Shown one piece after another: positions 17,891-46,025 of a stretch of 49,161 nt of DNA. A program made the translations under genes and the position numbers. The stretch is from Chloroflexota bacterium (lineage in GTDB: Bacteria; Chloroflexota; Anaerolineae; UBA4142; SHND01). The DNA is taken from contig JAKOPZ010000328.1 in the NCBI GenBank assembly GCA_029778615.1, positions 1 through 49,161 on the forward strand, given 5' to 3'. The notes under the pieces were generated by a model. It was not told the origin of the DNA and did no database searches. It saw only the letters and a list, made by a program, of their open reading frames with translations. The stretch's first letter is position 1. Each line of letters opens with the position of its first letter.

Positions 17891-17893
17891 ACA

Positions 17894-17938
17894 GGTGACA
17901 AGGTGACAAGGTGACTGTCACCCTGTCACCTTGTCACC
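17894..17938. repeat. GTGACAAG octamer array as a near-perfect hairpin between convergent genes
   Basis: Three direct octamers (17894-17915) face three inverted ones (17917-17938), one base apart and with one mismatch. The array lies between the fucosidase and protease stop codons and encodes the last residues of the protease (VGDKVTG and stop). It could act as a bidirectional terminator. Confidence 0.85.
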
Positions 17939-18760
17939 AACCACATTGGAAGCGCAAGCATAAAGCACGGTCTTTATCTGAAACGGCGTGAGTTCAGGAT
18001 GTTTGCTGCGAATCAATGTCGCAATCCCCGCAATGTGCGGCGCGGCAAAACTGTTGCCCGTCGTTGTCATCATGCTTTCGTCCGCCCAAGCGACAACCAC
18101 ATCAATCCCCGGCGCACCAAATTCTACCGGCGGTTCGGGATTGTAATAGTACGTGAAGGGGTCATGCCCTTCGTGCGCGGCGACAGAAATGACGGAAGAA
18201 TAGAGTGAGGGATAACTGGGCGCGGGAATGTTGTTCACCGCAGAGACGAGCAAGATATTTTTGAAATACGCTTCGTCAGCGAGTTCGTGAAAGAGCGCAT
18301 AGTATTCTTGTTTTGAAGTGGACAGCGAAAGATTCATTACGTGCATTCCGTTCTGAATTGCCCAACGCAAGCCGCCCGCAAATTGTAACCCGCGTCCCGT
18401 CGCGTCTTTGCCCAACACGCGCACGCTGTAAATTTCGGCGTCCGGCGCGAGTTTGTGAATGATGCCCGCGCACGCGGTGCCGTGTCCAAACAAATCGCGC
18501 GGTGTTGGGTCGTCGGAAATTCGTACACCCTCTTTGCGTCGTCCATCGTACTCGACAATCACCCCCCCCTTGACGCAATCGTCCAGCCACGGATGATTGT
18601 ATTCCACTCCCGAATCAATGACCGCGACGCGCATTCCTTGCCCCGTCGCGCCACCCCATGCCCATTCGCGCGAGATAGATGCAATCGGACCGAACGCGCG
18701 CAGTTCTCGGAGTACGTCGGAAGTGAATTGGTTAGAGTAGGCGGGTCGGAGTTCTGACAT
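17918..18760 (-). CDS. Subtilisin-like serine protease (S8), compact and without a signal peptide
   Basis: 280 residues. The catalytic triad is intact: Asp49 in VAVIDSGVEYNHP, His93 in GHGTACAGI and Ser237 in GNSFAAPHIAGIA, with the oxyanion Asn in VSAVNN. There is no signal peptide and no I9 propeptide, only about 40 residues before the Asp motif, so it looks intracellular or dependent on a partner. It is the last gene of the block starting with the GAF gene, 78 bases after the nSTAND-WD40 ATPase. In known systems STAND ATPases often activate an associated protease, so it may be the effector of its neighbour; it could alternatively process the repeat polypeptide encoded upstream. Both roles are inferred. 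Confidence 0.93.
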   Translation of the reverse strand: MSELRPAYSNQFTSDVLRELRAFGPIASISREWAWGGATGQGMRVAVIDSGVEYNHPWLDDCVKGGVIVEYDGRRKEGVRISDDPTPRDLFGHGTACAGIIHKLAPDAEIYSVRVLGKDATGRGLQFAGGLRWAIQNGMHVMNLSLSTSKQEYYALFHELADEAYFKNILLVSAVNNIPAPSYPSLYSSVISVAAHEGHDPFTYYYNPEPPVEFGAPGIDVVVAWADESMMTTTGNSFAAPHIAGIATLIRSKHPELTPFQIKTVLYACASNVVGDKVTG

Positions 18761-18842
18761 TGGGGGATGAGGGGGTGACAGGGTGACAAGGTGAAGGGGT
18801 GACAGAGCGAATTGTCACCTTGTCACCTTGTCACCTTGTCAT
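18761..18842. repeat. GTGACAAG octamer array between the protease and ATPase genes
   Basis: Direct units (18771-18803) and inverted units (18813-18840) flank GCGAAT. The array supplies the TGA stop of the ATPase gene and ends at the protease start. Confidence 0.85.
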
Positions 18843-21800
18843 GGGTTTTGACATTCAATCGTTTCGTGTAAAAACGTGACGCGTTCTTCGCAGGTTAGTT
18901 CGCGCGTAATGCGCGCATCCGCAAGTTTCAACAATTCGTCGAGCGGCGCGCACGCGATACATTCGTATAAACGCGCGGTCGTGTCGCCTGTGGTCACAAT
19001 CGTTTTGCCGTCGGGACTGAACGCCGCGTCGGTCACAATATCCGAATGTCCGCGCAAAATTTCGATGAGCTTGCCCGTTGCCGTTTCCCACACGCGCGCG
19101 GTCTTGTCATTACTCGCGGTGATGATGAATCGTCCGTCAGGGCTGAACGCGGCGCGCGTAATTTCGGCGGTGTGTCCTTTGAGTTCGTGCAAGAGGTTGC
19201 CCGAATTCGCATCCCACACGCGCGCCGATTTATCCAAACTCGCCGTCAGCACAAGTTTCCCATCAGGGCTAAAAACCATATCGTATATGTGTGCTGTATG
19301 CCCGCGCAGTTCTGCAATTTTCTGTCCGGTTGCTGCATCCCATACTGTCACAATGGAATGTCCCGCCGCCAGACTCGGGGCGCTCGCCCCTGCAACAAGT
19401 CGTCCATCGGGACTGTACGTGGCGGAGTAAAAAACTTGTCCGGCGTTTCTTAAAGATTGCACCTTCTCGCCGTTGGTGGTGTCGAAAACAGCAACGTGCG
19501 TCACATTGGCAGCGGCGACAATGTGCTTGGCATCCGCACTGTACGCAATCGTATAGGGAATATAGTCATTCTGAAATTGCGACTTGCCTACTGTCGTGTT
19601 TGCAAGCAGTGTTCCGTCTGGCACACTCCAAATCCGTATCCTCTGGTCTTCGCCGCCGGTTGTGACTGTTTTGCTGTCGGGGCTAAAGACTGCGGTAACT
19701 ATGTGACCGCTGTGCCCGCGCAATTCAGCAACCAAACTGCCGTCAGATGAATTCCAAATTCTCGCAATTCCGTCGTCGCCTGCCGTGACAATATACAAAC
19801 CGTTTGGACTGTATGCAATTGAATTGATTGCGCCCGTGTGTCCGCGTAATTCGAAAAGCGTTTTCCCCGTCGCAGTTTCCCACACGCGCGGGAGGCCATC
19901 TTTGCCTGCGGTTGCAACGCGCTTGCTGTCGGGACTGAACGCGGCTTGTTTTACAAAATCGGTATGACCTTCCAACGCTTCGCCCGGGTTCACATGCCAC
20001 AAGCGCGCGGTGCTATCATCGCTTGCAGTAATAATGGATTGTCCGTCAAGACTGAAATGCGCGGTGTTGACTGCCGCATTATGTCCATTCAAATCTTGAA
20101 GGGGTTCAAGAATTGCGTCTGTAGGCGCACTGCCAAGACCCTGGTCCAGTCTGGTTCCTGGAGCAACTTCGTTTCCCTTAAATTGCCACCATCGCGCGCT
20201 ATTGTCGCCGCCTACAGATACAGCATATTTTCCATCTGCACTGAATCTCGCATCTCTAATACCTCTACGGTGTCCAGGCAGATTGGCTTTATTGAATCCT
20301 GTAAATGCATCATAAACGCGCAAAGTTCCATCATCATTCCCCGTCAAAATGTATCTGCCAGATGGGCTGTACGCAAGTGAGCGGACTCCACTCGGCGTGT
20401 CCTTCAACTCGGCGATTTTATTCCCTGTTGCGAGTGACCAAATTGTTGGAGGTGCGGCGTTTCCTCCAGAAAGCGCAATGAACTGGCTATCGGGGCTAAA
20501 TTCCAAATCATGGGGATAAAGGTCTGGAATTTGTAAAATCAGCTCCCCCGTTTCGACATCCACAATAGAGAACCCGATAGTATCCGTACCAGCGACAAGA
20601 GAGCCATCAGGGCTAAATATGGCGACATTGAGTTTGGTTTTGTAATTGAATCGTTGAATTGGGTTGCCAGCCGCAGCATCCCAGATACGCGCAGTCGCAT
20701 CATCACTTGAGGTGAGGATATGTTTTCCATCGGGACTGAAATGCACATCGTTGATTTTATTTTCATGCCCGCGTAATTCGCTCACCAATTTGCCTGATGG
20801 AATTTCCCAGACGCGCGCCACTGTGTCCTCATCTCCCGTAACCAGGTAACGCCCATCGGAGGACAAATCAATTGCCCCCGTGCCGGTTTTCGGGGAAATG
20901 CTGGAAATGATGGTTCCGGTATCAGAGTTCAAAATACGAATCGGCGCACAGGTGACTGTGAGACCCGTCGAACGGTCACAGAGCTCCCACATAATGACAT
21001 ATTTTCCATCAGGGGTGATAAGCGCATCCAAGATGGGCGCGCCTCCTCCCTTGACTGTCCAACGATATGGATTAAGCAGCACCGTTCTCAACGCATCTTC
21101 CGCTTGTGTTGTCTGTGCGGTGTTCATCGCTTCGCGCGCGATGAGTAAGGCGCGTTCTGGGTCGGATTCAAGTTGTCCGAGCGACAGCGCGGCGAGTTCG
21201 CCGGAACGCGCGATTTTTTGTTGATTCACCGCGTCCGCTTTTGCCGCTTCCGCGTTCTTTTTTTCTTGCTCCGCCAATTCTTTTTGCGCGTTCGCGTCCG
21301 CTTGCGCTTTTTGCGCCGCGTCGCGTTGATTCAATGCTTCTGCTTTTTGTTGTTCGGCAAATGCCGACGCGCGTTCCGCCTCTTGCCGCTGTGTCAATGC
21401 AAACACCGCGAGCGCAATCACTCCGAGCAATAACAAACTCAAACCCACCAAACCAAAACGCAAACGTCGCACGCGGTTTTTTTCCGCAGCCAATTTTTTT
21501 TCGCTCTCGATTTTTTCTTGCTGCTGTGTAAAACGCGTGCGCCAATTTAAAATCGGCGCGCCCAACACATCATGGAAAATTTCGTAACGCGGTTCCGTCG
21601 GCTGATCCAACGGCGGCGCGACAGGACGCAAGATGCGGACATCCCCACTCGATAATTTTTCCAACGTCGCGGCAATTTCGTTTTGCGGCGCGTGCGCGTA
21701 ATTGGCGAGGTCGTGCGCCGTGTGCGCGATTTTTGTCCCCGACGGTGTGACAAGAAAATTGAAAATGTTCGCGGCGACGTGCTGTTCGTTTTCGGGCAGC

Positions 21801-22813
21801 GCACCCATCGTCGTATCCAAATGCGTCCGCACAATTTTTTCTGCGCCGCCCAAACGTTCAAGCGTTTCCAAGCGCAGCGTGTGCGAATCCGCGCGCATGG
21901 TTTCATCCCACAGACGCGTCATCACCAATTGCAAATACGGCGTTTCAATTTCATCGCCGCCCGCGCGTTCCACCGCGCCGCGTCCACTTTCACCAACAAT
22001 CACTTGTCCCGTGCGCGTTTGCTCCAACACCGCGTCCACGAGCGCGGGCTCGATTTCCACGCGACTGCCGTTCGCATAAAGCCGATTGTATTCGTCCAAC
22101 GGTTTCACAATCGCCTCGCGCGCCGCGTCGCGGTCGAGGTGTGCCATCCGCAAATAATTGTCAAATAAATTTGGAATGCGTCCTTTGAAACGGTCTAGTT
22201 TCGCCAAGGCATCTTCGCGAATTGCCAATAAAAAATTGACGCGCAAATCGTCGCGATTGAGCACACGCGCAAACTCGTCGGCAAACGAATGTTTGCCCGC
22301 AGACGAACCTGCGCCGCCGTCGTCGGGATGATACAAAAAATATTCTTCGAATTGGTCGAGGATGATATAGAGGTCGCCGCCGACGCGTTGGGCGTTGGTG
22401 TTCAGTGAGTCTGCGAGTGAAGGATGATGGGGTGATGGGGTGAGGGGGTGAACGGGTGCCGTAGAGACGTTTCGGTGAAACGTCTCCTCTCCTGATAACA
22501 ACGTTCGCGCAATTTCATCCTCCACGCGCGCGATGAGAGCTTGCACGGGGTCGTCGCGCCAACTGGAAAAAACGACGACGCCAAATTCGGGCGTGCCGCG
22601 TTCATTCAAATTACGCTGCGCGTCTTGACGCAGTTGATGCGCGATGCCCGCGCGCAACACAGAACTTTTTCCCACACCACTCGCGCCGTACAACAACGTG
22701 AGCCGCGAAACGTTCATGTTCGCAATGATGATGTCTTGCTCCGCCGCGCGTCCGAAAAAGAACGGGGCGTCAGATTCGGCGTAGGGCATGAGACCTTTGT
22801 AGGGAGAGTGCAT
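18839..22813 (-). CDS. nSTAND1 ATPase with transmembrane segment, coiled coil and about 16 WD40 repeats
   Basis: 1324 residues from ATG at 22813 (AGGAG upstream). The N-terminal SPYKGLMPYAESDAPFFFGR leads to Walker A YGASGVGKS (42-50) and a Walker B-like region LYIILDQFEEYF (148-159), the nSTAND1 arrangement. A single hydrophobic helix (about 455-480) is followed by an Ala/Glu/Lys-rich coiled coil (about 485-560). About 16 WD40 units (FSPDGK...ARVWD type) then form probably two propellers. STAND ATPases are signal sensors that oligomerise on ligand binding, and the WD40 part is the likely sensor. Residues about 107-131 are encoded by inserted repeat DNA between Walker A and Walker B. The protease downstream is a likely partner. 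Confidence 0.93.
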   Translation of the reverse strand: MHSPYKGLMPYAESDAPFFFGRAAEQDIIIANMNVSRLTLLYGASGVGKSSVLRAGIAHQLRQDAQRNLNERGTPEFGVVVFSSWRDDPVQALIARVEDEIARTLLSGEETFHRNVSTAPVHPLTPSPHHPSLADSLNTNAQRVGGDLYIILDQFEEYFLYHPDDGGAGSSAGKHSFADEFARVLNRDDLRVNFLLAIREDALAKLDRFKGRIPNLFDNYLRMAHLDRDAAREAIVKPLDEYNRLYANGSRVEIEPALVDAVLEQTRTGQVIVGESGRGAVERAGGDEIETPYLQLVMTRLWDETMRADSHTLRLETLERLGGAEKIVRTHLDTTMGALPENEQHVAANIFNFLVTPSGTKIAHTAHDLANYAHAPQNEIAATLEKLSSGDVRILRPVAPPLDQPTEPRYEIFHDVLGAPILNWRTRFTQQQEKIESEKKLAAEKNRVRRLRFGLVGLSLLLLGVIALAVFALTQRQEAERASAFAEQQKAEALNQRDAAQKAQADANAQKELAEQEKKNAEAAKADAVNQQKIARSGELAALSLGQLESDPERALLIAREAMNTAQTTQAEDALRTVLLNPYRWTVKGGGAPILDALITPDGKYVIMWELCDRSTGLTVTCAPIRILNSDTGTIISSISPKTGTGAIDLSSDGRYLVTGDEDTVARVWEIPSGKLVSELRGHENKINDVHFSPDGKHILTSSDDATARIWDAAAGNPIQRFNYKTKLNVAIFSPDGSLVAGTDTIGFSIVDVETGELILQIPDLYPHDLEFSPDSQFIALSGGNAAPPTIWSLATGNKIAELKDTPSGVRSLAYSPSGRYILTGNDDGTLRVYDAFTGFNKANLPGHRRGIRDARFSADGKYAVSVGGDNSARWWQFKGNEVAPGTRLDQGLGSAPTDAILEPLQDLNGHNAAVNTAHFSLDGQSIITASDDSTARLWHVNPGEALEGHTDFVKQAAFSPDSKRVATAGKDGLPRVWETATGKTLFELRGHTGAINSIAYSPNGLYIVTAGDDGIARIWNSSDGSLVAELRGHSGHIVTAVFSPDSKTVTTGGEDQRIRIWSVPDGTLLANTTVGKSQFQNDYIPYTIAYSADAKHIVAAANVTHVAVFDTTNGEKVQSLRNAGQVFYSATYSPDGRLVAGASAPSLAAGHSIVTVWDAATGQKIAELRGHTAHIYDMVFSPDGKLVLTASLDKSARVWDANSGNLLHELKGHTAEITRAAFSPDGRFIITASNDKTARVWETATGKLIEILRGHSDIVTDAAFSPDGKTIVTTGDTTARLYECIACAPLDELLKLADARITRELTCEERVTFLHETIECQNP
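22421..22486. repeat. Repeat insertion inside the ATPase coding region (octamer tract plus palindrome)
   Basis: A GATGGGGT/GAGGGGGT octamer tract (22421-22455) adjoins a perfect palindrome GAGACGTTTC-GGT-GAAACGTCTC (22464-22486). Both are read in frame as a Pro/His-rich loop in the ATPase domain. The palindrome resembles small dispersed repeats I recall from cyanobacterial genomes. Confidence 0.8.
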
Positions 22814-22823
22814 GTTTGAACTC

Positions 22824-22880
22824 CTGACAGGGTAACAAGGGACAAGGGACAAGGTGACAGGGTGACAAGGTGATTGTGAT
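22824..22880. repeat. GTGACAAG octamer array between ATPase and four-helix genes
   Basis: Degenerate to exact units (GGTAACAAG, GGACAAGG, GGTGACAGG, GGTGACAAG) run in one orientation between the ATPase start and the four-helix-bundle stop codon. Confidence 0.8.
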
Positions 22881-22883
22881 TGA

Positions 22884-23273
22884 TTATGTTTTGCGTTTGG
22901 TGATGACCCACGTTTCGGGATGATTAATCATGCCAACGAGAGTGCCGATGATTTCGTTATACTTTTGATACAAGGTGCGCGCGAGCTCGCGGTCGAGATA
23001 TTCACATTCAACACAAAATTCCAACCACACTTGCGTTTCCGCTGCTTCTGCTTCGGCATCCGATAATTTGCTAATGAAATGGGCAACATAACGTCTCTTG
23101 CGCCACGCCTCTGCTAAATTCGCGCAAACCGAACGCGAGGAACGACGAATTTGGTCGGTCAAAGAATATGTTTCAGTTTTAGGAAAACTTTTGGACAAGC
23201 GAAAAATCTCCATCGAAGCATCGAACGATTTTTTGTACACTTCCAAGTCCCGATGAGTCACGATATTGCCCAT
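22884..23273 (-). CDS. Four-helix-bundle protein (23S rRNA intervening-sequence protein / Avd-like family)
   Basis: 129 residues. HRDLEVYKKSFDASMEIFRLSKSFPKTETYSLTDQIRRSSRSVCANLAEAW is the diagnostic N-terminal half of the four-helix-bundle family, which includes proteins encoded in 23S rRNA intervening sequences and, more distantly, the Avd accessory protein of diversity-generating retroelements. Many members have unknown roles, probably in nucleic-acid binding. The start has GAGAGGA upstream. No reverse transcriptase or template repeat is nearby, so a retroelement role is not supported. Its place between the cyclase-SIR2 and ATPase genes may be functional or accidental. Confidence 0.88.
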   Translation of the reverse strand: MGNIVTHRDLEVYKKSFDASMEIFRLSKSFPKTETYSLTDQIRRSSRSVCANLAEAWRKRRYVAHFISKLSDAEAEAAETQVWLEFCVECEYLDRELARTLYQKYNEIIGTLVGMINHPETWVITKRKT

Positions 23274-23337
23274 TGAATTTTCCTCTCTTGTGTCACGTAC
23301 CGTCGCATTAGAGAATGCTCCTTACGCGTTACGAAAT

Positions 23338-23389
23338 GTCACCCTGTCACCCTGTCACCCTGTCACCCCATCACCCCCTCACCCTCTCC
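23338..23389. repeat. CCTGTCAC octamer array overlapping the end of the cyclase-SIR2 gene
   Basis: At least four exact CCTGTCAC units, decaying to CCCATCAC and CCCCTCAC, run into the coding end, where they encode the last residues (VRG) and the TGA stop of the cyclase-SIR2 gene. Confidence 0.85.
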
Positions 23390-24855
23390 TCCAACATCCC
23401 CACATACTCTTCCAACTTTACATTCAGACTTTCCACATCGCGCTTGCGCCAAAATTCTTGTTCCAATACATCTGGTTTCGCGCCGACCGCCCACGACTTG
23501 TACGTCAAACGCTGCTGCCCCCACAAACGATGCAAAATCACGCGCAAATACCAATCCCGTAACGAATACCCCAAAAACAAAAAATGACTCTTGCGTAATT
23601 TTGCCGCCAGCGTCACGGGAATCAAACTCGAAATATCGCCGCGCGCGAGATAATCAATGTAATGGTCTTCGGTAATCACAAAACTGTCCCACTCGGAACT
23701 CTCGCGGTCCACTGCGCCGTGCAATTTCAAAATGATGCAGCGCGGGTCGGCGGCGAGACCGCGATATTCGTTCGGGCGTTCAATCAACGTCGCGTTCCCA
23801 TCGGGCGTGCGATGCAAAAATTTTCCGCGCGCTTCGCCTTCGGCAACATACGTGACCAAATCAAATTCTTCATTCGCCGCGCGAAACGCGCGTTCGAGTG
23901 CGTCGTCGTAATTGGTTGTGACAAATAAAAGCGCGCGCGGTGAGAAATTTTTCGCGCGCAAGAGCGCGGGGAGCTGCGCGAGGAATTGGTGCAGCGCGGT
24001 CGGCGCGTAGTCGGCGTCGAGGAGTGCGTGCATTTCGTCGTACAACGGACCCGTTCCCGTCACGAGCGAAACGTACTGCGAAACATGCACGAGGTCACGC
24101 GGCGCGTTCGGGGGATAATTGAAATTTTGCGCGAGATGTTCCGCGAGTTCCGCGCCATGCGGCAAAACTTCGGCGTGATGATTTTCCCAAATCGCGCCCG
24201 ACAGCCGTCCAAACAAATTGACGCCTTCGCCTAAAAAAATGACGAGCCGATTTTCGCTCAACGCTTTCACCACCGCGTCGAGATGCGCGTCGAGCGCATC
24301 CAAGCCTTTGAGCGGCGGAAAATCCGATTTCAAATCGAGCGCGACAATTTGAAAAACATGTTCGGGCTTTTTCAAATCTTTCAGGCGAATCGCGCCGAGG
24401 TCGCGCAAACTCACCCCATTCGGCAAATCATTTTGTGCCGCATCAAACGTTTCTTGCGTGAGAATAATTTGCCCGCCGTATCCCGCCGCGCCCACGCGCG
24501 CTGCGCGATGTACGTCCACGCCAACGTAACGTTCATTGCTGACGACCGGCGCGCCGGTGTGCAAACCCATTCGCACGCGCACTTGAACATTTTGCGCCCA
24601 CGCGTGATTGAGAAGCGCGCGTTGTGCGTCCACTGCCGCCGTGAGCGCATCGGGCGCATTCGCAAAAGCATAAAAAAACGAATCGCCCTGATTGTCCACC
24701 TCAACGCCGTTGCGCGCCGCGAACGCGGAACGAAGCAATTGCTTTTGGTCATTCAACACCAACGCATATTCCGCGCCGAGTTGATGTAACAATTGCGTCG
24801 AACCTTCAATGTCGGTAAAGAGAAAGGTGACAGTGCCGGTTGGAAGTGTAGGCAT
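23371..24855 (-). CDS. Class III nucleotidyl cyclase fused to a SIR2-like domain
   Basis: 494 residues from ATG at 24855. Residues about 7-172 are a class III cyclase: metal Asp15 in FLFTDIEGST, Asp58 in QGDSFFYAF, and the transition-state Arg120 in VDVHRAARV, where the usual Asn is His116. Residues about 200-490 are SIR2-like: GEGVN (209-213) in the glycine-loop position, TTNYDD (313-318), KLHG with catalytic-type His379, and FLGYSLRDW (427-435). SIR2-like domains of this branch are often NAD-consuming defence effectors; cyclases make cyclic nucleotides. The fusion could couple a second messenger to NAD cleavage. Whether both halves are active is unknown. It sits between the GAF and four-helix genes. 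Confidence 0.9.
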   Translation of the reverse strand: MPTLPTGTVTFLFTDIEGSTQLLHQLGAEYALVLNDQKQLLRSAFAARNGVEVDNQGDSFFYAFANAPDALTAAVDAQRALLNHAWAQNVQVRVRMGLHTGAPVVSNERYVGVDVHRAARVGAAGYGGQIILTQETFDAAQNDLPNGVSLRDLGAIRLKDLKKPEHVFQIVALDLKSDFPPLKGLDALDAHLDAVVKALSENRLVIFLGEGVNLFGRLSGAIWENHHAEVLPHGAELAEHLAQNFNYPPNAPRDLVHVSQYVSLVTGTGPLYDEMHALLDADYAPTALHQFLAQLPALLRAKNFSPRALLFVTTNYDDALERAFRAANEEFDLVTYVAEGEARGKFLHRTPDGNATLIERPNEYRGLAADPRCIILKLHGAVDRESSEWDSFVITEDHYIDYLARGDISSLIPVTLAAKLRKSHFLFLGYSLRDWYLRVILHRLWGQQRLTYKSWAVGAKPDVLEQEFWRKRDVESLNVKLEEYVGMLEERVRG

Positions 24856-24875
24856 AATGCGTGCCGGAATGGCAG

Positions 24876-24927
24876 GGTGACAAGGTGACAGGGTGACGGT
24901 CACCTTGTCACCTTGTCACCTGTCACC
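24876..24927. repeat. GTGACAAG octamer hairpin between GAF and cyclase genes
   Basis: Units at 24876-24897 and their near-perfect complement at 24899-24920 are one base apart. The inverted half supplies the last residues (GDR) and TGA stop of the GAF gene. Confidence 0.85.
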
Positions 24928-25668
24928 ACTATATTCCCCAAACGCTTGCAAAATTTTCAAACACAACGCGCGTTCGCGTTCGCCGAGCGATGCGATTTCT
25001 TGAAACACGCGCGCAATTTCCATCACGTCGTCATGACGCAGTGCGTCATTGTGTTCCATCGCGCGTTGTATGTCCACTGCGGCTTCGGGGGAAACGAGCG
25101 CGCGTAAATTTTCAACAAGCGCGTGATTTAACTCGTCGAGATGTTCGGATTGATGAATCGCAATCGCCGCCTGACGCGCAAACATGCCGAGCAGTTCCAT
25201 GTCCTGCATTCCGAACGACGGCGCGCTGATTTTGTCCAACACTTCCATTACGCCGATGACGCGGTCATCCACAATCAATGGCATGGCGAGAATGGACTTG
25301 GGAACGTATCCGGTTTTTTCTGCCGTGTCGCGCGCAAAACGTTTGTCACTCTGAACGTTGGAAACCGCGATTGGTTGTCCCGTGTTGGCGACGTAACCGG
25401 CAACGCCTTGGTCGAGCCCGATGCGCATGCCAACCACAGTTTCGCTACCGACACCATACGCAACGCGAAAGACGAGTTGCCCCGCGCGTTCATCCACGAG
25501 CGCGATAGAAGAAGCCGCTGCGCCGAAAATGCGCGCGGCGGCTTCGACAATGGTTTGCAAGAGTTCGTCGTTGGATGAAGGCAAGAGCGCGCGTCCGGTG
25601 GCTTGAATGGCGAGGAGCCATTGTTGCAATTGCGCGGCGAGAGGATTGGAAGAAGTTGTATTGTCCAT
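24916..25668 (-). CDS. GAF domain sensor protein
   Basis: 250 residues. A GAF domain spans about 30-178: LQTIVEAAARIFGAAASSIALVD, GLDQGVAGYVANTGQPIAVSNV and MPLIVDDRVIGVMEVLDK, followed by an F...D...LL end that resembles the NKFDE-type element of cyclic-nucleotide GAF domains. The C-terminal 70 residues are helical with no output domain recognised. It is probably a small-molecule sensor working in trans on the cyclase-SIR2 protein encoded 60 bases downstream. A terminator separates it from the repeat-polypeptide gene upstream, so it needs its own promoter, which I could not identify. Confidence 0.88.
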   Translation of the reverse strand: MDNTTSSNPLAAQLQQWLLAIQATGRALLPSSNDELLQTIVEAAARIFGAAASSIALVDERAGQLVFRVAYGVGSETVVGMRIGLDQGVAGYVANTGQPIAVSNVQSDKRFARDTAEKTGYVPKSILAMPLIVDDRVIGVMEVLDKISAPSFGMQDMELLGMFARQAAIAIHQSEHLDELNHALVENLRALVSPEAAVDIQRAMEHNDALRHDDVMEIARVFQEIASLGERERALCLKILQAFGEYSGDR

Positions 25669-25683
25669 GAGGGATAATGGTTA

Positions 25684-25727
25684 GAAAAACGCACAGGTGG
25701 GAGCGATGACGGTTCGCTGCCCACCTG
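25684..25727 (-). terminator. Intrinsic terminator after the repeat-polypeptide gene
   Basis: On the minus strand CAGGTGGG and CCCACCTG pair, extended by AGCGA/TCGCT across one bulged base (25694-25727), and are followed by GTTTTT (25685-25690). It separates the peptide gene from the GAF cluster. Confidence 0.75.
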
Positions 25728-25773
25728 ACGAGGAGAAGAAGGAGTTTGCAGTTGAAATTTAGCAGAGCGACGA

Positions 25774-26364
25774 CTATGCCGAAATCGCTTCTGTGACTTT
25801 GTAGCCGCCCGTGGTCGGGTCGAATTCGAGTTGTTGATTGAGGGCTGCGGCTTGCACTTGAGTTGCTTTGGTCGCGCGACGGGGTTTGATTGCGCCGGTC
25901 ATTTGATGAGCAGCCACTTCGGCTCCGCCTTTGACAGCTTTGATAGCTTTGACCGAGCCGGTGGTCATCTGATGCGCCGCGACATCGGCTTCGCCTTTGA
26001 CGGCTTTGATGGCTTTGACCGAGCCGGTGGTCATTTGATGGGCTGCCACTTCCGCCGCGCCCTTGACAGCTTTGATGGCTTTGACCGAACCGGTGGTCAT
26101 CTGATGCGCCGCGACTTCGGCTCCGCCTTTGACGGCTTTGATGGCTTTGACCGAGCCGGTGGTCATCTGATGCGCCGCCACATCGGCTTCGCCTTTGACG
26201 GCTTTGATGGCTTTGACCGAGCCGGTGGTCATTTGATGCGCTGCCACCTCTTCGCCCAAAATCAACTTGTCCAGCAAGTTGCGTTCATCTTTGGAAAGGG
26301 TCGCCCGCATTGCCGAAAGTTTTTTCACGAGGCGTTTGAAGGCGGTGCGTTCTTTGTCTGTCAT
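25774..26364 (-). CDS. Cationic tandem-repeat polypeptide (five 22-residue units); possible multi-core peptide precursor
   Basis: 196 residues. A charged helical leader (1-38, ending in NLLDKLILGE) is followed by five 22-residue units (39-148), each reading VAAHQMTTGSVKAIKAVKG with an acidic residue before and a variable EA, GA or AA after. A degenerate sixth unit and a tail containing FDPTTGGYKV follow. Each unit holds four Lys in a 12-residue stretch and an acidic spacer. I do not recognise a family. It could be a polyprotein that releases cationic peptides, or a repeat fold. No RiPP-modifying enzyme is nearby. AGGAGG lies before the ATG. Upstream is a CRP-type promoter shared with two neighbours; downstream is a terminator. 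Confidence 0.85.
   Translation of the reverse strand: MTDKERTAFKRLVKKLSAMRATLSKDERNLLDKLILGEEVAAHQMTTGSVKAIKAVKGEADVAAHQMTTGSVKAIKAVKGGAEVAAHQMTTGSVKAIKAVKGAAEVAAHQMTTGSVKAIKAVKGEADVAAHQMTTGSVKAIKAVKGGAEVAAHQMTGAIKPRRATKATQVQAAALNQQLEFDPTTGGYKVTEAISA
25900..26250 (-). repeat. 66-bp tandem repeat coding for the polypeptide units
   Basis: Five complete 66-bp units (25921-26250) and part of a sixth. Units differ mostly at third codon positions, while the protein is constant except at the unit junction, which points to selection on the peptide. The unit-ending pairs run EA, GA, AA, EA, GA, suggesting a three-unit duplication step. Confidence 0.9.
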
Positions 26365-26414
26365 TTTCTAATCCTCCTGATGGAATTGGTTAATGCCTGT
26401 CGGTTGATGCTCCG

Positions 26415-26457
26415 ATTGTATCGGAATTCAATACGAATGTCTGTCATCTAGATGACA
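26415..26457 (-). promoter_or_regulatory. Class II CRP-type promoter of the repeat-polypeptide gene
   Basis: A perfect 16-bp palindrome TGTCATCTAGATGACA (26442-26457) is centred 34.5 bases from the downstream edge of a TACAAT -10 box (26415-26420). No -35 box is evident, as expected where an activator replaces it. The same geometry occurs before two neighbouring genes. Confidence 0.75.
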
Positions 26458-26477
26458 CAAACAAACCTGTTGCCAAA

Positions 26478-26900
26478 TTACTTTGCCAAACCGCCGCGTC
26501 GTAAACCGGGGTCAAGATATTCGCTCGCGGGCGCGCTCAACGTTTGATTCACATTGCGGTCAAAATAACGCGCGTTCCATTCGTCACTGTGCGCTTTCCA
26601 ATCTGTCTTGCGAGCAATCGGTTTCGCCGCCGCATGCAGTCCCGCCAATCCGCCGCGCAACGGTCCGCGCGATGCGCTCTCGAAATAGAATGGCAGCTCG
26701 GTAGCGACATTGCGATTGAAATAGAAATCGCTCCAGGCGTCGGAATGCGCTTTGAGAACAGGACGCGGACGAATCGGCGCATTGCCCAATTCTTGTTTCA
26801 ATTCCTTGCCGGGTTCGTTGGGCGCTGCGAGCAACATTGTTGGGAGTGTGAGCAACATCAGGGCGAACGTGGCGGCGAGTGCAAGTTTGTACGTTTTCAT
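26478..26900 (-). CDS. Small secreted protein with a duplicated KAHSD-W-YF-RNV motif
   Basis: 140 residues from ATG at 26900 with GGAGG upstream. A clear signal peptide (MKTYKLALAATFALMLLTLP, cleavage near LLAA) is followed by a mature part of about 115 residues that contains KAHSDAWSDFYFNRNV and later KAHSDEWNARYFDRNV, each followed by a Gly/Leu/Arg-rich segment (GLRRGGLAK at the end). I do not recognise a family. It is expressed from a CRP-type promoter like its neighbours, so it may act with the repeat polypeptide, for example as a surface or immunity component. That role is inferred only. Confidence 0.8.
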   Translation of the reverse strand: MKTYKLALAATFALMLLTLPTMLLAAPNEPGKELKQELGNAPIRPRPVLKAHSDAWSDFYFNRNVATELPFYFESASRGPLRGGLAGLHAAAKPIARKTDWKAHSDEWNARYFDRNVNQTLSAPASEYLDPGLRRGGLAK

Positions 26901-26956
26901 GGCGAACCTCCTTGAACGAATCGGCGGAAAGTTCCGCACTAACCGATTACGTTAAT

Positions 26957-26999
26957 AGAATAACACGCCATGTGCTGTGCGTCTGTCAGATACGTGACA
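26957..26999 (-). promoter_or_regulatory. Class II CRP-type promoter of the secreted-protein gene
   Basis: TGTCAGATACGTGACA (26984-26999) is centred 34.5 bases from the downstream edge of TATTCT (26957-26962), the same arrangement as at 26415-26457. Confidence 0.7.
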
Positions 27000-27015
27000 C
27001 AACGAAAAAATTGTT

Positions 27016-28785
27016 TTACGTTGGCGCGGGTTCCACACGCAGCTCGCGCAAAGTCGCCTGGTCGAAACCGGCAAAGCGCGGCAAATCGTTAAGGTTGGTG
27101 CGCGACAAACGTTCGTAAAATTTCACGCGCACAATTTGGCTGATGCCTGGATACGTCATCAAGTGGCGCAAAGTCTGCGCGGGCACTTGGAGCAGCGTCG
27201 TCGGTTCTTGCGCCAAAACGTTCGCGGTGCGCGGTTGTCCCGAGAGCGCGGCAATTTCACCAAAGAAATCGCCCTCGCCCATCGTTTCCAGCCAACGCGT
27301 TCCGCCGCCTTCCTCCACACCCGCAATTGCACTGCCCTGCATCACAATAAACGCGGCATCACTCGTTTCGCCAAAGCGCACAATTGTCGAACCTGCGGGC
27401 GCGTACAAAACAGTCGAATGCGTCGCAAGCATTTGACGGTCAGTGGGACTCAATGCGGCGAGCGCGCCAAAACGCAGTGCGAGCGCGTCAATGTCTGCGG
27501 GCGTTGCCAAACGCAGGACTTGGGCGGCGGGCGCGGTCGGCGCGGTCCGCAGCAATTGAATGACTTGCTTCCACTGCGCTGCCGGTTGTCCGAGTCCGGG
27601 GAGAAACAGCACGAGAATGCCCGGGACCAGTATCATCAACGCCGCGATGAAAAACAATTCGCGCACGCCCGTCAGGTCCGCCAGTCCCGTCAAGCCCATA
27701 CCGATTAAAAACGAAACATCGCGCGTGACAAAGAAAACGCTCGCGACGCGCCCGCGCATTTCGCGCGGCGTGTTGCGCTGCAAAATCAATTGCCGCGCCA
27801 CCACCGACGGCGCGTTCATAAATCCCGAAAGCGTCACAAAGAAAAAAGCGAGCGTCACCGACGACAGCTGCGAATACACAATCTGCGCCAGACCCATGCC
27901 GACAAAGCTGATGGTCAACCATTGTCCGGCGGGCAGCCGGTCCGCATAGCGCGCCATCAACAAACTCGACAGCACAAAGCCGAGCGAGGTCAGCCCTTCT
28001 TGAATACCGTACTCGAATTCCGTCGCGTGCAGTGCGCGCGTGGCAAAGGGGAGCAGCAGCGCGTTCGTCAATCCAAAACTGATGCCCATGATGGGCAAGA
28101 GCGTGTACGACGAACGCAAAATTTGCGAGCCGAACAAAAAACGAAAGCCGCTTTGCATGTTGCGAAAAATCGTCACCACACGCGTTGCGCCTTCTGCTTG
28201 CACCGACGGCACGCGCGTAAAAAATATACAGCCCGCCGAAAACAAAAACGTCAGGGCGTCGAGATAAAACGCGATATCGAGTGAAATTTGCGCGAGCAGC
28301 CCCGACGCCGCAAAGCCCACCGCCGTTGCGCCGAACGAGCTGATTGCCATCAACGAATTCGCCGCCGCCAGTTCTTCATCCGACGCGATTTCCGGCAGCA
28401 CGGATGCCTGCGCCGGTTCAAAAAATTGTCCAACGCAGCTGGTCAACAACACAATCACGTACAGCCACACCACATTCGACGTGACGAGAAACGGAATCGT
28501 AACCACCAACGCCGCGCGCACAATATCGGCAATCAACATGATGCGCTTGCGGTCCACGCGGTCCACAAACACGCCCGCAATCAAGCCCAACACAATGCTC
28601 GGCGCGGCAGTCGCCATCAACATCAAGCCGACGGACAACGCGGAACCGGTCGCGCGATAAACGAGAATCGAAGCGGCGAGCGAAGTCAACGCGCTGCCCA
28701 CCGTCGAGACGAGCTGCGCCGTCCAGAGCAGCGTAAAGTTGCGATTGCGGAACACCGCAAACGGAGAAATCGGAGCGCTGTGCAT
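27016..28785 (-). CDS. MFS transporter fused to a C-terminal cyclic-nucleotide-binding domain
   Basis: 589 residues from ATG at 28785. The first 410 or so residues are a 12-helix MFS exporter of the MFS_3/enterobactin-exporter kind (FAVFRNRNFTLLWTAQLVSTVGSAL, then LGLIAGVFVDRVDRKRIM). Residues about 430-560 are a cNMP-binding domain with GEGDFFGEIAALSGQPRTANVLA, which retains the phosphate-binding Glu and Arg of the cassette. A ligand-gated exporter is suggested. The gene starts just after the terminator of the STAS gene, so expression may need readthrough. Its substrate is unknown; the neighbouring peptide is a candidate by proximity only. Confidence 0.9.
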   Translation of the reverse strand: MHSAPISPFAVFRNRNFTLLWTAQLVSTVGSALTSLAASILVYRATGSALSVGLMLMATAAPSIVLGLIAGVFVDRVDRKRIMLIADIVRAALVVTIPFLVTSNVVWLYVIVLLTSCVGQFFEPAQASVLPEIASDEELAAANSLMAISSFGATAVGFAASGLLAQISLDIAFYLDALTFLFSAGCIFFTRVPSVQAEGATRVVTIFRNMQSGFRFLFGSQILRSSYTLLPIMGISFGLTNALLLPFATRALHATEFEYGIQEGLTSLGFVLSSLLMARYADRLPAGQWLTISFVGMGLAQIVYSQLSSVTLAFFFVTLSGFMNAPSVVARQLILQRNTPREMRGRVASVFFVTRDVSFLIGMGLTGLADLTGVRELFFIAALMILVPGILVLFLPGLGQPAAQWKQVIQLLRTAPTAPAAQVLRLATPADIDALALRFGALAALSPTDRQMLATHSTVLYAPAGSTIVRFGETSDAAFIVMQGSAIAGVEEGGGTRWLETMGEGDFFGEIAALSGQPRTANVLAQEPTTLLQVPAQTLRHLMTYPGISQIVRVKFYERLSRTNLNDLPRFAGFDQATLRELRVEPAPT

Positions 28786-28835
28786 AAACAAAAAGCCCCT
28801 CTTTTGAAATCTCGTTTGAAAATTCAAAAGAGGGG
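28786..28835 (-). terminator. Intrinsic terminator between STAS and MFS genes
   Basis: On the minus strand a perfect 13-bp stem (28796-28808 with 28823-28835, core CCCCTCTTTTGAA) is followed by CTTTTTG. It ends about ten bases before the MFS start codon and occupies the place of its ribosome site. Confidence 0.85.
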
Positions 28836-28853
28836 ACCCGGGTGCAGAACGAA

Positions 28854-29189
28854 TTAAAAACTCGTCGCGGCGGCGTCACGCGTCGGAAAGATTTTAAACA
28901 GCTTGTCCAAGCCCACGAGCTTGAGCGAGTCGAGCAAATAATCGGATGCGCCCGCGAGTCGCAAATCGCCGTTCTTGTCCTGGACCGCGAGGCGCGCGCT
29001 CAATAACGCGCGCATTCCCGCGCTGGACATGAACGTCGTGTCGCTCAAATCCACCACCAATTTGTAATGTTTTGCTTTGATGGCATTCTGAAGCGCTTCG
29101 TCCAATTGCGGCGCGGTGAATCCGTCCACCCGTCCGTTCACGGAAATGACTTGCGTGTTGCCTTGCGTTTCGGTATTGACTGTGAGCAT
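28854..29189 (-). CDS. STAS domain protein (anti-sigma factor antagonist type)
   Basis: 111 residues. The whole protein is one STAS domain: VISVNGRVDGFTAPQLDEAL, LVVDLSDTTFMSSAGMRALL and LKLVGLDKLFKIFP. The SSAG serine pair is at the site phosphorylated by anti-sigma kinases in SpoIIAA/RsbV relatives. Such proteins free a sigma factor or regulate a phosphatase/kinase switch. GAGGAGG lies before the ATG. It is transcribed from a CRP-type promoter and is followed by a terminator and the MFS gene. No anti-sigma kinase is seen in the window. Confidence 0.92.
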   Translation of the reverse strand: MLTVNTETQGNTQVISVNGRVDGFTAPQLDEALQNAIKAKHYKLVVDLSDTTFMSSAGMRALLSARLAVQDKNGDLRLAGASDYLLDSLKLVGLDKLFKIFPTRDAAATSF

Positions 29190-29218
29190 AAGTTTGCCTC
29201 CTCATAGAGTACACACGC

Positions 29219-29261
29219 ACTGTACTGCATTATCGAAAAAATGTCTGTCACTTGCGCGACA
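29219..29261 (-). promoter_or_regulatory. Class II CRP-type promoter of the STAS gene
   Basis: TGTCACTTGCGCGACA (29246-29261) is centred 34.5 bases from the downstream edge of TACAGT (29219-29224), matching the two sites before the peptide and secreted-protein genes. It lies between the STAS gene and the CRP-family gene. Confidence 0.7.
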
Positions 29262-29313
29262 CTTGTACGCGGCATTATATAAACTCTCGCCGCGCCGCGC
29301 AATGGGGGTTGCC

Positions 29314-30003
29314 TCAAACTTGCGCGATGCGCCGCAAGGATGCGCGGTCCAAAATGACCAGTTTGCCGCGTCCGGTAAGAATCCAACCCGCGCGCCGCCA
29401 TTGTCCCAAAATTTTCGCGGTCGTCTGCCGCGCCACGCCGATATGCTGTGCGAGTTCATCTTGCGAGAGCGTGATAAAGCCCTTGTCGCTCGCCGCGCGG
29501 TCGAGGTCCAACAACACGCGCGCCAAGCGCGACGGCGCATCGAGAAACGCCAACGCGCGTTCGCGTTCGGTGCTGGCGCGCAAACGCTGCGCGGTGATTT
29601 CCAAAATTTGACGCATCAAGCGCGGCTGCCGCTCCAGCTCGGCCAAAAATTCCGCACGCGGCAAACGAATCACTTCGGTATCCAGCTGCGCCATTGCCGA
29701 TGCCGAACGCGGCGAATCTGTGAGCAGTGCCAGTTCGCCGAGACACTCGCCGGCGCGCAATTCGTTAATCACCAGCTCGCGTCCGTCGGTGGTAGTCAGG
29801 ACAATTGCCAACGCGCCCGCACGAATGACAAACGCCGCATCCCCTTCATCGTCTTGATAAAAGAGATAACTGTGACGCGGAATCCGTTTCAGGTGCGCCA
29901 CGCGCGCAAACACTGCCAGCGCGGCATCATCCACTTTTTGAAAGAGGGGAATGCGGCGCAGTAGATTCATCAATTCGGCGGGGGCAAGGCGTGACTCGGG
30001 CAT
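29314..30003 (-). CDS. CRP/FNR family transcription regulator
   Basis: 229 residues from ATG at 30003. Residues about 12-130 form a cNMP-binding domain with GECLGELALLTDSPRSASAMA, keeping the Glu and Arg-Ser of cAMP-binding members; no FNR-type cysteine cluster is present. Residues about 165-225 are a winged helix with LSQDELAQHIGVARQTTAKILGQWRRAGWI. In the recognition helix the E. coli CRP motif RETxxR is RQTxxK, which fits a site that differs from TGTGA. It is adjacent to the STAS gene promoter bearing a TGTCA-N6-CGACA site, so it is the likely regulator of the three CRP-type promoters here. Confidence 0.93.
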   Translation of the reverse strand: MPESRLAPAELMNLLRRIPLFQKVDDAALAVFARVAHLKRIPRHSYLFYQDDEGDAAFVIRAGALAIVLTTTDGRELVINELRAGECLGELALLTDSPRSASAMAQLDTEVIRLPRAEFLAELERQPRLMRQILEITAQRLRASTERERALAFLDAPSRLARVLLDLDRAASDKGFITLSQDELAQHIGVARQTTAKILGQWRRAGWILTGRGKLVILDRASLRRIAQV

Positions 30004-30070
30004 CGCGCTGTGAACATGGTAACACGAATGCGCGTCGCGCGAAAGGGGGTTTCGCAGAATTGATTCCGTT

Positions 30071-30112
30071 TTGAAAAAAAAATCCGGCGTCTCGCGCGGG
30101 CGAAACACCGGA
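30071..30112 (-). terminator. Intrinsic terminator after the DUF4097 gene
   Basis: On the minus strand TCCGGTGTTTCGC and GCGAGACGCCGGA form a stem with a few mismatches (30083-30112), followed by a run of T (30074-30082). Confidence 0.85.
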
Positions 30113-30133
30113 CTTGCAGGAGGGGAATCGTTT

Positions 30134-31582
30134 TCAATTTTTCAAACTGCGCAAGAGCATTTCCGCTTCCGCCACCGTAATTTCACCGGCTTGGAGCGCT
30201 TGCAAAATCGCAAACTGCGAATCGTACACTTGGACGCTACCTTGAACGCTACGGGGAGCGTTCCCTACATTGGGCGGATTCAACGCGGCTTCGGGTTCCG
30301 CTAAATCGGTCACGGTGACGGGCACGACCGCGTTCGCGGATTGTGGCGGCGTCGGAGGCGCGGGCGGCACGGGCACTTGCGGTTCCTGCCGCGCCATCGC
30401 GCGTTCTTGTTTTGATGCAGCTCGGGGCGCCGCCGTTGGAACACCGGCATAGCGCGAGGGGCGTCGTTCCATCTCGATTTGAATATCACCATGTTGTGAT
30501 TCCAAATGAATGTCAACGGGCTCGCCTGAACCTTCGCCGATGGTGCCAACCATTCGCCCGCCATGGCGCGCGCCGGGACCGGGACGCCCGACACGCACGA
30601 GCGGCGCATCACATTCGATTTCGCCATGCCGCGTTGCCGCATCAATACGCGCATACGCATCACCGGGCAGTTCGAGACGAATATCGCCGTTGCGCGTGGT
30701 CAGCTGCCATGCTGTCGTCGGCAGAACACTTTCCAGTTCCATATCACCGCGCGCGGTTTCCAAATCGAGTTCCGCGACGCGTCCCAATTCCATTTGAATG
30801 TCGCCGCTGCCGAGCCGCACGCTCACGAGCTGCGCGTCCAATTCTTGAAAGGCGACGTCACCATGTCCGAGCCGCACATGCACTCCATCGCGCTTGTCGT
30901 CATCCTCGCCCATTTTGAAATCGAACGAGAAACTGCGCGCAAAGCTGTCCGCCCACTGCGAGACCTGTTCGCCAAATTGCTCGCCCCATTCTTCCCACTG
31001 CTTGCCGTACTCTTCCCACGGCTGGTCACTTGCGACTTGAAAGCGTTTACCTATCCGCACTCGTACATTCGCAGGCGGAATCGGAGGAATCGGGGGAAAC
31101 GGCGCGGTAGGCGGCGTTCCCGGCACGGGTGGAATATTGGACTTGGTTTCCGACGCCGTCACCCGTTCGGGCGCGGGCGGCGCATCGGTCTGAGTACAAT
31201 TTTCCAAACTCACATCGCCATTGCCGGAACGCAGATTGAACACGCCGCGACAATTCTCCATCTCTATATCACCGCTGCCCAGTTGAACATTAAACCGTCC
31301 GTTCACATTTTCCACGCGCACTTCGCCGTTGCCCGACGAAAGTTCAATCACCCACGCTTTCGCTTGGGGCAGAGTCAGAGACCATTCACTGTTGCCGGGG
31401 AATGGACTGATGTGCAGCCAGCGTCCGACGATGCTCGGTTCGCTCCCAAAGCGACGACGTCCGCGCTCATCTCCTTCCAATAAAATTTCGTTCGAGTCGT
31501 GTGCCAGGATTTCAAATTCGCCATTTGTGGCGACGATGCGGATGGCGTCAAACGCATCCGCGTTCCATTTGTATTCAGACAT
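30134..31582 (-). CDS. DUF4097-type beta-helix protein with a SHOCT-like C-terminal helix
   Basis: 482 residues. The body is built of short repeated strands such as SGNGEVRVENVNGRFNVQ, GSGDIEMENC, LGSGDIQMELGR and TARGDMELESV, typical of DUF4097 (a right-handed beta-helix-like putative adhesin domain). A proline-rich stretch (about 150-185) and a Trp/Glu-rich patch (EEYGKQWEEWGEQF, about 205-220) interrupt it. The final 30 residues (ILQALQAGEITVAEAEMLLRSL) form a SHOCT-like helix pair also seen in the DUF2089 neighbour. There is no signal peptide, so it is probably cytoplasmic. It is the third gene of an operon begun by the DUF2089 regulator; the start has GGAGG. Confidence 0.82.
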   Translation of the reverse strand: MSEYKWNADAFDAIRIVATNGEFEILAHDSNEILLEGDERGRRRFGSEPSIVGRWLHISPFPGNSEWSLTLPQAKAWVIELSSGNGEVRVENVNGRFNVQLGSGDIEMENCRGVFNLRSGNGDVSLENCTQTDAPPAPERVTASETKSNIPPVPGTPPTAPFPPIPPIPPANVRVRIGKRFQVASDQPWEEYGKQWEEWGEQFGEQVSQWADSFARSFSFDFKMGEDDDKRDGVHVRLGHGDVAFQELDAQLVSVRLGSGDIQMELGRVAELDLETARGDMELESVLPTTAWQLTTRNGDIRLELPGDAYARIDAATRHGEIECDAPLVRVGRPGPGARHGGRMVGTIGEGSGEPVDIHLESQHGDIQIEMERRPSRYAGVPTAAPRAASKQERAMARQEPQVPVPPAPPTPPQSANAVVPVTVTDLAEPEAALNPPNVGNAPRSVQGSVQVYDSQFAILQALQAGEITVAEAEMLLRSLKN

Positions 31583-31621
31583 GGGTTGCCTCCGGTAAAT
31601 TTACATTGACGTTGCGCGCGC

Positions 31622-31843
31622 TCAAGGTTTTGAGGTCGAAGGTTTGAGCGAGGGAGTATCTTGCAAACGTTCGCCCCACGCGACCAACTTGCTGCCGACC
31701 GCGCGGCGCACGCGTTTGCTGTTGCCCTTGTGCTTGTTCGTTTGCGCCAAGAGCTCGTTCACCTGCGCCGCGTACTGCAGCGCGCGAATTTCATCTTGGT
31801 GACGTTCTTGTTCATAGCGTGCATTGAGCCAATTCATACGCAT
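31622..31843 (-). CDS. Small basic hypothetical protein
   Basis: 73 residues. It is mainly helical and charged (NARYEQERHQDEIRALQYAA, then RVRRAVGSKLVAWGERLQ) with no recognised domain and no membrane segment. It is supported by GGAGG five bases before the ATG and by its position between the DUF2089 and DUF4097 genes with gaps of 29 and 39 bases. The helical N-terminus could be a short coiled-coil adapter. Function unknown. Confidence 0.7.
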   Translation of the reverse strand: MRMNWLNARYEQERHQDEIRALQYAAQVNELLAQTNKHKGNSKRVRRAVGSKLVAWGERLQDTPSLKPSTSKP

Positions 31844-31872
31844 TGTCCTCCAAACATTCCAGTGAACGTTCG

Positions 31873-32274
31873 TTATTGCGCCAAGCCCTTGAGTTGTTCC
31901 AACGCTTGCGCGGCGTCCAGTTCGCCCGCCGCCACTTTTTGCAAAATGGCACTGCGTTCATTGGAAGGCGAGTTAGCCGGCGCGGCAGTTTGTTCCGCGC
32001 GGTCGCGCGCTTCGGTATTGTCAAGCGCCTGATTGATTTCTTCCAGCTTGTTACGGATGGTGGGATACGAAACGCCCAGCACTTTTTCCATCTCGGACAA
32101 ATTGCCGCGCACGCGCAGAAACGCGCGCACAAACGTCACCTGGTCTTCGGACAGGGTCGAAAACAGCCCGGGTTTGAATTCGCCCTGCATGGTGAGTTGG
32201 CAATTCCCGCACTTGATTTCCGTGATTGTGATAGGTCCGCCGCAGGCGGGACATTGTTCAAAGAGTTTCAGCAT
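31873..32274 (-). CDS. DUF2089 family zinc-ribbon/HTH regulator
   Basis: 133 residues from ATG at 32274 with GGAGG upstream. A zinc ribbon with CPACGG and CGNC (residues 8-26) is followed by a helix-turn-helix-like segment (LSEDQVTFVRAFLRVRGNLSEMEKVLGVSYPTIRNKLEEI), the DUF2089 signature. The C-terminus (ILQKVAAGELDAAQALEQLKGL) is a SHOCT-like helix pair shared with the DUF4097 product of the same operon. It is likely a transcription regulator, perhaps autoregulatory, since a near-consensus promoter with a nearby palindrome precedes it. Confidence 0.88.
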   Translation of the reverse strand: MLKLFEQCPACGGPITITEIKCGNCQLTMQGEFKPGLFSTLSEDQVTFVRAFLRVRGNLSEMEKVLGVSYPTIRNKLEEINQALDNTEARDRAEQTAAPANSPSNERSAILQKVAAGELDAAQALEQLKGLAQ

Positions 32275-45866: not shown

Positions 45867-46017
45867 TCGAGATTAGAGACTAGAGACTGGAGACTGGAGA
45901 TTGACGTTTGACGTTTCACGTTTGACGTTTGACGTTTCACGTTTGACGTTTGACGTTTCACGTTTGACGTTTGACGTTTGACGTTTGACGTTTGACGTTT
46001 GACGTTTGACGTTTCAC
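45867..46017. repeat. Heptamer arrays TAGAGAC/TGGAGAC and CGTTTGA/CGTTTCA
   Basis: A short array of 7-bp units (GATTAGAGACTAGAGACTGG, 45867-45900) leads into some 16 units of CGTTTGA or CGTTTCA (45903-46017), the longest perfect short tandem array in the window, filling the whole gap between two genes. Confidence 0.92.
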
Positions 46018-46025
46018 GCACCGCA

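Follow-up and report, generated by a model that had tools for sequence, protein, structure and literature searches.

A tandem-repeat protein family of Anaerolineae, encoded with a subtilisin-like protease and proposed as its ligand and probable substrate

The window, i.e., the whole stretch of DNA that was analysed (49,161 nt), encodes a tandem-repeat protein that belongs to a real, undescribed protein family. We propose, with a probability of roughly one half, that this protein serves a subtilisin-like (S8) protease from the same operon as a dedicated ligand and probably as a substrate. By computation, we describe the family and its motif, the predicted disorder of the repeats, the operon, its operator and the co-occurrence of the repeat family with the protease. 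Given the operon, the operator, the co-occurrence and the observation that repeat-less homologues come without the protease and its GAF-domain neighbour, we put forward the array as the subtilase's ligand or substrate. A gene located in a signal-controlled set beside its own subtilisin-like protease looks as if its product were made to be cut. In the literature, we found no description of the system.

The repeat gene and its parts are located as follows.

25774..26364, minus strand: tandem-repeat protein gene, 196 aa, here the founding member of the unnamed Anaerolineae family
26251..26364, minus strand: N-terminal helical hairpin, residues 1-38, conserved as K..L.KKLSALRATLSKDERxLLD (alignments, AF2)
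25918..26247, minus strand: five 22-residue units, residues 40-149, each with [E/D]-V-A-A-H-Q-M at its start
25855..25917, minus strand: partial sixth unit VAAHQMTGAIKPRRATKATQV
25795..25830, minus strand: C-terminal beta-hairpin LEFDPTTGGYKV, conserved in most homologues, repeat-less ones included (AF2)

An earlier note on this DNA had reported a five-copy repeat array within the gene. We confirm the five copies and add the partial sixth unit. Tandem Repeats Finder reports the array at 25897-26247 with a period of 66 bp, 5.3 copies and a score of 548. A stretch of 19 residues, VAAHQMTTGSVKAIKAVKG, is identical in the five units, with three-residue junctions that read EAD, GAE, AAE, EAD and GAE, respectively. 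The sixth unit departs from this pattern past VAAHQMT.

The same note had concluded that the peptide itself is under selection. When pooling the pairwise differences among the five units, we find 48 synonymous and 14 nonsynonymous changes (pN/pS 0.096), and all nonsynonymous changes are within the three-residue junction. A similar picture is given by the array of G175, which is independent and from another family (pN/pS 0.09, pS 0.59). Since synonymous changes are in large excess over nonsynonymous ones in both arrays, the observation is sound and well beyond chance, and the selection is purifying. On the opposite strand, an ORF of 206 aa (25831-26451) runs across the repeat gene, and the repeats are the apparent reason why it stays open.

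The AF2 model of the repeat protein, based on a ten-sequence alignment, shows helices at residues 3-22 and 25-36 (pLDDT about 93) as well as strands at residues 179-182 and 187-190 (pLDDT about 78). Throughout the array, pLDDT values are about 50 or less. The model thus predicts a disordered repeat array between two ordered ends. A fold search with the protein returned a single weak coiled match, which is uninformative. By inspection, we found neither a signal peptide nor a double-Gly leader in the repeat protein.

Homologues were first searched with the protein sequence and afterwards with an N-terminal profile; all of them are from Anaerolineae. In genome contigs, the single-protein search gave no matches, and the leader profile was required. 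No carriers outside of Anaerolineae were found in a sample across the phylum Chloroflexota, and no close relative was found on viral contigs or plasmids. Pfam and NCBIfam hold no model for the repeat protein or its leader, with only low-complexity matches below cut-off. The G074/L009 and G338/L025 matches were rejected as spurious or marginal.

The N-terminal hairpin is common to all homologues, with L16, A18, R20, L23, E27, L31 and D32 invariant in the alignment, and a C-terminal hairpin of the LEFDPTTGGYKV type is found in most complete ones. A search for homologues of variable copy number, as the earlier note had recommended, is positive: the number of motif units per protein ranges from 1 to 9 between species. 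G003 has nine VAAHAMTTGAAKAIKAAKGGN units, G005 has two units, and G018 and G019 have one each. In other lineages, the units are EVEGHVMKPAAKPAAKP (G071), EVEGHVLKEANKPANKP (G175), EVEAHQLKGKVTKTYDEP (G220), DEMMAHSMTERITPGVTPAADAGP (G288) and EVEAHGMSRQKATSSKIVLQAKPTEP (G302). Family-wide, they can be summarized by the motif [E/D]-V-x-[A/G]-H-x-[M/L], and the profile around the histidine from 15 lineages reads E(-4) V(-3) x [A/G](-1) H x [M/L/F](+2). The motif histidine is kept in 15/15 lineages; the linkers differ. Unit charge is lineage-specific with net values from -3 to +2, and the arrays of G220, G288 and L045 are net negative. The units had been described as strongly cationic, which does not hold even for the window, where each unit carries only +1 to +2. 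Low-complexity sequence is observed in G000, G003, G018 and G019. The homologues of G085 and G130 are without repeats and show a degenerate motif, and the G011 array is broken by Ns.

The genes surrounding the repeat gene in the window are listed below.

29314..30108, minus strand: CRP-family regulator, cNMP-binding and HTH_Crp_2 domains, start codon uncertain
28854..29189, minus strand: STAS-domain protein, anti-sigma-factor-antagonist type
27016..28827, minus strand: MFS transporter with C-terminal cyclic-nucleotide-binding domain
26478..26900, minus strand: small secreted-looking protein, start at internal ATG
24916..25668, minus strand: GAF-domain protein, next gene 3' of the repeat gene
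18839..24903, minus strand: nSTAND1-WD40, 23S-IVP-type and cyclase-SIR2 genes between GAF and S8
17918..18760, minus strand: S8 subtilase, intact Asp/His/Ser triad

According to a gene-order table of 24 stretches, the order of the operon is kept across families of Anaerolineae and comes in two forms. In the first form, genes for a hybrid histidine kinase, an Hpt protein, a receiver-cyclase, a cNMP-SpoIIE phosphatase and a CRP regulator are followed by those for the repeat protein, the GAF protein and S8. This form is found in L031, L037 and L042 and, as far as contigs reach, in L033, L035, L045 and L048. In the second form, which includes the window, the same three genes follow those for CRP, STAS and an MFS transporter with cNMP-binding domain. 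The GAF gene is located directly 3' of the repeat gene at every repeat-bearing locus whose contig continues. In most relatives, the S8 gene adjoins the GAF gene and is thus two genes downstream of the repeat gene. The earlier note had listed a nearby protease: the protease is a true conserved partner, but in the window it is found as far as 7 kb downstream. The nSTAND1-WD40/IVP/cyclase-SIR2 genes are absent between GAF and S8 in G005, G302, L042 and L043. For G175, G220 and G288, the contig stops inside the array, and a contig from the same genome opens with the remaining array, followed by GAF and S8.

A small secreted protein had also been listed as encoded nearby. It has no counterpart in the orthologous intervals of G003 and G005 and is probably a lineage-specific passenger. 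The protein contains two copies of KAHSD.W...YF.RNV, and its gene has a CRP-type operator of its own (26984-26999). Exporters (MFS or ABC) are found near several loci and are not constant. In the L037 operon, where every gene besides the repeat gene is assigned, there is no tailoring enzyme; a B12-radical SAM gene is seen only in the neighbourhood of G071. PADLOC reported general subtilase, SIR2 and cNMP matches only, and we therefore do not class the operon as defence.

Two CRP-type operator sites and a third, operator-like one are placed between these genes.

26442..26457, no strand assigned: CRP-type operator TGTCATCTAGATGACA, located 77 bp 5' of the repeat gene
26984..26999, no strand assigned: second copy of the operator, TGTCAGATACGTGACA, located 5' of the gene for the small secreted protein
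29246..29261, no strand assigned: third operator-like site TGTCACTTGCGCGACA, between the CRP and STAS genes

The palindrome TGTCR-N6-YGACA is found 5' of the repeat gene in 15/17 loci, among them those of the repeat-less G085 and G130. It is absent at G011, and G288 has a version with one mismatch. The gaps between operator and start codon, computed for 14 loci, range from 64 to 163 bp. Across 21 scanned stretches, we observe 23 sites vs. 0.9 expected from shuffles; for the strict form, 0.02 are expected in the window. The window's own genome contains five strict TGTCA-N6-TGACA sites, two of them here, vs. two for the reversed control, and the other sites revealed no clear regulon members. Judged by sequence match, the predicted site has the layout of the CRP/FNR type. 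The CooA consensus TGTCGGCNNGCCGACA is a similar 16-bp palindrome, i.e., CooA-type CRP/FNR operators share the pattern TGTC(R)-N6-(Y)GACA (PMC545781). Unlike these, the operator studied here is tied to a cyclase-containing operon and to the repeat-protease gene set. An Rfam scan of window positions 17000-32000 gave no match.

We also compared the distribution of the repeat family and the S8 subfamily within a sample of 396 genomes of the class. The repeat family is present in 14 genomes, the S8 subfamily in 13 and both in 10, such that 4 genomes are repeat-only and 3 subtilase-only (Fisher P about 1e-14 when ignoring phylogeny; because the genomes are related, this value overstates independence). 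Among the exceptions, contig ends interrupt the locus in G018, G309 and G329, and G338 is a marginal match. In G141, fragments of MFS and GAF are fused 5' of S8, and from this remnant we conclude that the repeat gene was deleted or misassembled. The repeat-less G085 and G130 have neither the GAF protein nor S8. G019 has S8 together with a single motif; repeats are therefore not required. In G003, there is a divergent GAF-S8 pair without an adjoining repeat protein. The S8 of this pair (L077 7026-8776) is 55% identical to that of the window and is encoded beside a ketoacyl-synthase-III-like gene and an ABC transporter set.

The S8 subtilase (Pfam PF00082) retains Asp, His and Ser as well as the oxyanion Asn in 14/14 sequences. 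Its alignment with mature subtilisin begins at residue 20, and neither a signal peptide nor a propeptide is found by inspection. Its AF2 model, based on five sequences, is too weak for use. Among curated models, mycosin and QhpE come closest, PatA follows more weakly, and none reaches its cut-off. QhpE, the maturation protease of quinohemoprotein amine dehydrogenase, is of similar size and domain and is among the best E-values. An assignment to the QhpE type was rejected, given NF049966 scores of 98-109 bits vs. a cut-off of 165. Unlike in QhpE systems, no other amine dehydrogenase gene was seen in the operon.

The motif resembles the ends of Bacillus subtilisin propeptides, which read EEDHVAHAY and EEDHIAHEY (checked in 1spb_P, 3whi_A and 1scj_B). 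That is, these show Ala at P4, His at P3, a hydrophobic residue at P1 and an acid at P7, and the repeat motif is arranged alike. Within the propeptides, no window scores better against the motif profile than these ends, with a background tail of 1e-4 for BPN' and 3e-3 for subtilisin E. The likeness is modest and was noticed post hoc, and we therefore treat it as a lead.

For the proposed ligand and substrate role, we envisage the following sequence of events. A phosphorelay or other input would cause the operon's cyclase to produce a cyclic nucleotide. Acting on TGTCR-N6-YGACA, the operon's CRP-type regulator would then switch on the repeat protein, the GAF protein and S8 jointly. The N-terminal helical hairpin and the C-terminal beta-hairpin would anchor the repeat protein, which holds the putatively disordered array of 1-9 copies. 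Each motif could fill the active site of the subtilase such that A/G takes P4, His P3 and Met/Leu P1, as in the Bacillus subtilisin propeptide ends. In this way, the protease might be loaded, held or fed by the array, and the array would be cut into unit-length peptides. The regulation by the operon's CRP, the binding of motif and subtilase, the cutting and the cut site are what we infer from these data. Cutting of the array would be the output of a cyclic-nucleotide circuit, possibly releasing unit peptides. A more far-reaching version, which we hold only tentatively, is that of a cytoplasmic subtilase without propeptide that is switched in trans by a disordered chain of up to nine propeptide-end mimics. 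Here, the copy number would tune protease activity or peptide number as the output of a signalling circuit.

Should the motif prove to be a subtilase site, the protein would represent a compact tandem substrate or inhibitor, with a copy number that has evolved between 1 and 9. How multi-unit precursors and the control of proteases evolved would then become directly testable with small soluble proteins. The system further adds a family without Pfam or NCBIfam model, linked to a single protease, a single regulator and a single operator, in little-known uncultured bacteria.

The location in the same operon and the co-occurrence data would also suit multivalent docking or inhibition, which we consider possible but doubtful. 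Here, the motifs would bind to either the subtilase or the GAF protein but not be productively cut, and the copy number would set how much protease is held inactive. The conserved motif with its varying linkers and propeptide-like ending is in line with such a role, and so is a subtilase that lacks its own propeptide. There is also a precedent: the Bacillus intracellular subtilisin Isp1 is kept with the cytoplasmic inhibitor IPI (PMC3901451), i.e., a cytoplasmic subtilase is combined with a separate regulatory protein, as here. By analogy, the Isp1-IPI pair is the nearest example of such protease control, but IPI is a single Ig-like fold, compared to the predicted disordered array of the repeat protein. 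What argues against docking is that, when the units of a single protein are compared, the linkers are strongly constrained as well (pN/pS about 0.1), which is needless for a plain spacer, and that a disordered array makes an easy protease substrate.

A strict multi-core peptide precursor, whose released units are exported as antimicrobial or signalling peptides, was the reading of the earlier note, and we consider it unlikely. It would explain the variable copy number, the low pN/pS between units and why units are alike within a protein and divergent between species; the operon's protease and the MFS or ABC exporters near several loci would find a role as well. The note had named a stable repeat fold and a fixed copy number as refuting this reading; AF2 with ten homologues predicts no such fold, and the copy number varies. 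On the other hand, the exporters are not constant, the operon has no conserved tailoring enzyme, neither a signal peptide nor a double-Gly site was found by inspection, and both protein ends are conserved even in repeat-less homologues. Unit charges of -3 to +2, along with the missing signal peptide and tailoring enzyme, do not agree with cationic antimicrobials in particular.

Among the closest known systems, the PatE-type precursors of cyanobactins, whose subtilases are PatA/PatG, likewise combine a conserved N-terminal part with repeated cassettes that a short recognition sequence flanks, and a subtilisin-family protease is part of the same gene set (PMC10885120); the similarity to PatA is weak (27.6 bits). 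The S8 protein was rejected as a PatA/PatG cyanobactin protease (TIGR03895 24-28 bits vs. a cut-off of 421), and the recognition sequences G(L/V)E(A/P)S and AYDG are unrelated to EVxAHxM. Unlike cyanobactins, the system studied here combines an annotated operon free of tailoring enzymes with a conserved C-terminal hairpin and a CRP-type operator. With regard to the traits of multi-core RiPPs, we find variable-copy cassettes and, in the gene set, a dedicated protease that would act on the precursor; as the tailoring enzyme is missing, we do not call the system a RiPP. Kex2-processed repeat proteins are fungal and secretory and have dibasic sites. They also combine near-identical tandem peptides in one precursor with a subtilisin-family processing enzyme. 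Different from these, the protein studied here is cytoplasmic-looking and from a bacterial operon, and the one from the window is without dibasic junctions.

Finally, a Lys/Ala-rich nucleic-acid-binding or spacer tail that changes length by slippage and has no dedicated partner would fit the low complexity in G000, G003, G018 and G019 and the drift in copy number, but it is quite improbable given the motif histidine in 15/15 lineages, the net negative arrays of G220, G288 and L045, and the GAF and S8 genes that accompany the repeats.

Some further observations relate to the neighbourhood. The gene at window positions 23371-24903 encodes a fused class III cyclase and SIR2-like domain that is weakly ThsA-like according to PADLOC. 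It adjoins the nSTAND1-WD40 gene, and the two may form a separate conflict system. Short octamer tandem repeats (types TTGTCACC, TGACAAGG and TGTCACCC) are located at 18812-18841, 22825-22873, 23337-23385 and 24899-24927, coinciding with the gene boundaries in the interval from GAF to S8. At 45901-46018, the window contains the heptamer TTGACGT 17 times (93% match).

In two genomes of one genus, an NRPS condensation-adenylation gene adjoins the operon (L031 1917-7516, L082 906-4091); L031 also carries B12-radical SAM and ADP-ribosylglycohydrolase genes. In G175, an ABC exporter gene is located directly 3' of the S8 gene (L080 8029-9906). Genes for M3-family oligopeptidases, which would suit peptide turnover, adjoin the operon in three genomes (L036 6533-8317, L043 11375-12717, L082 8266-10026).
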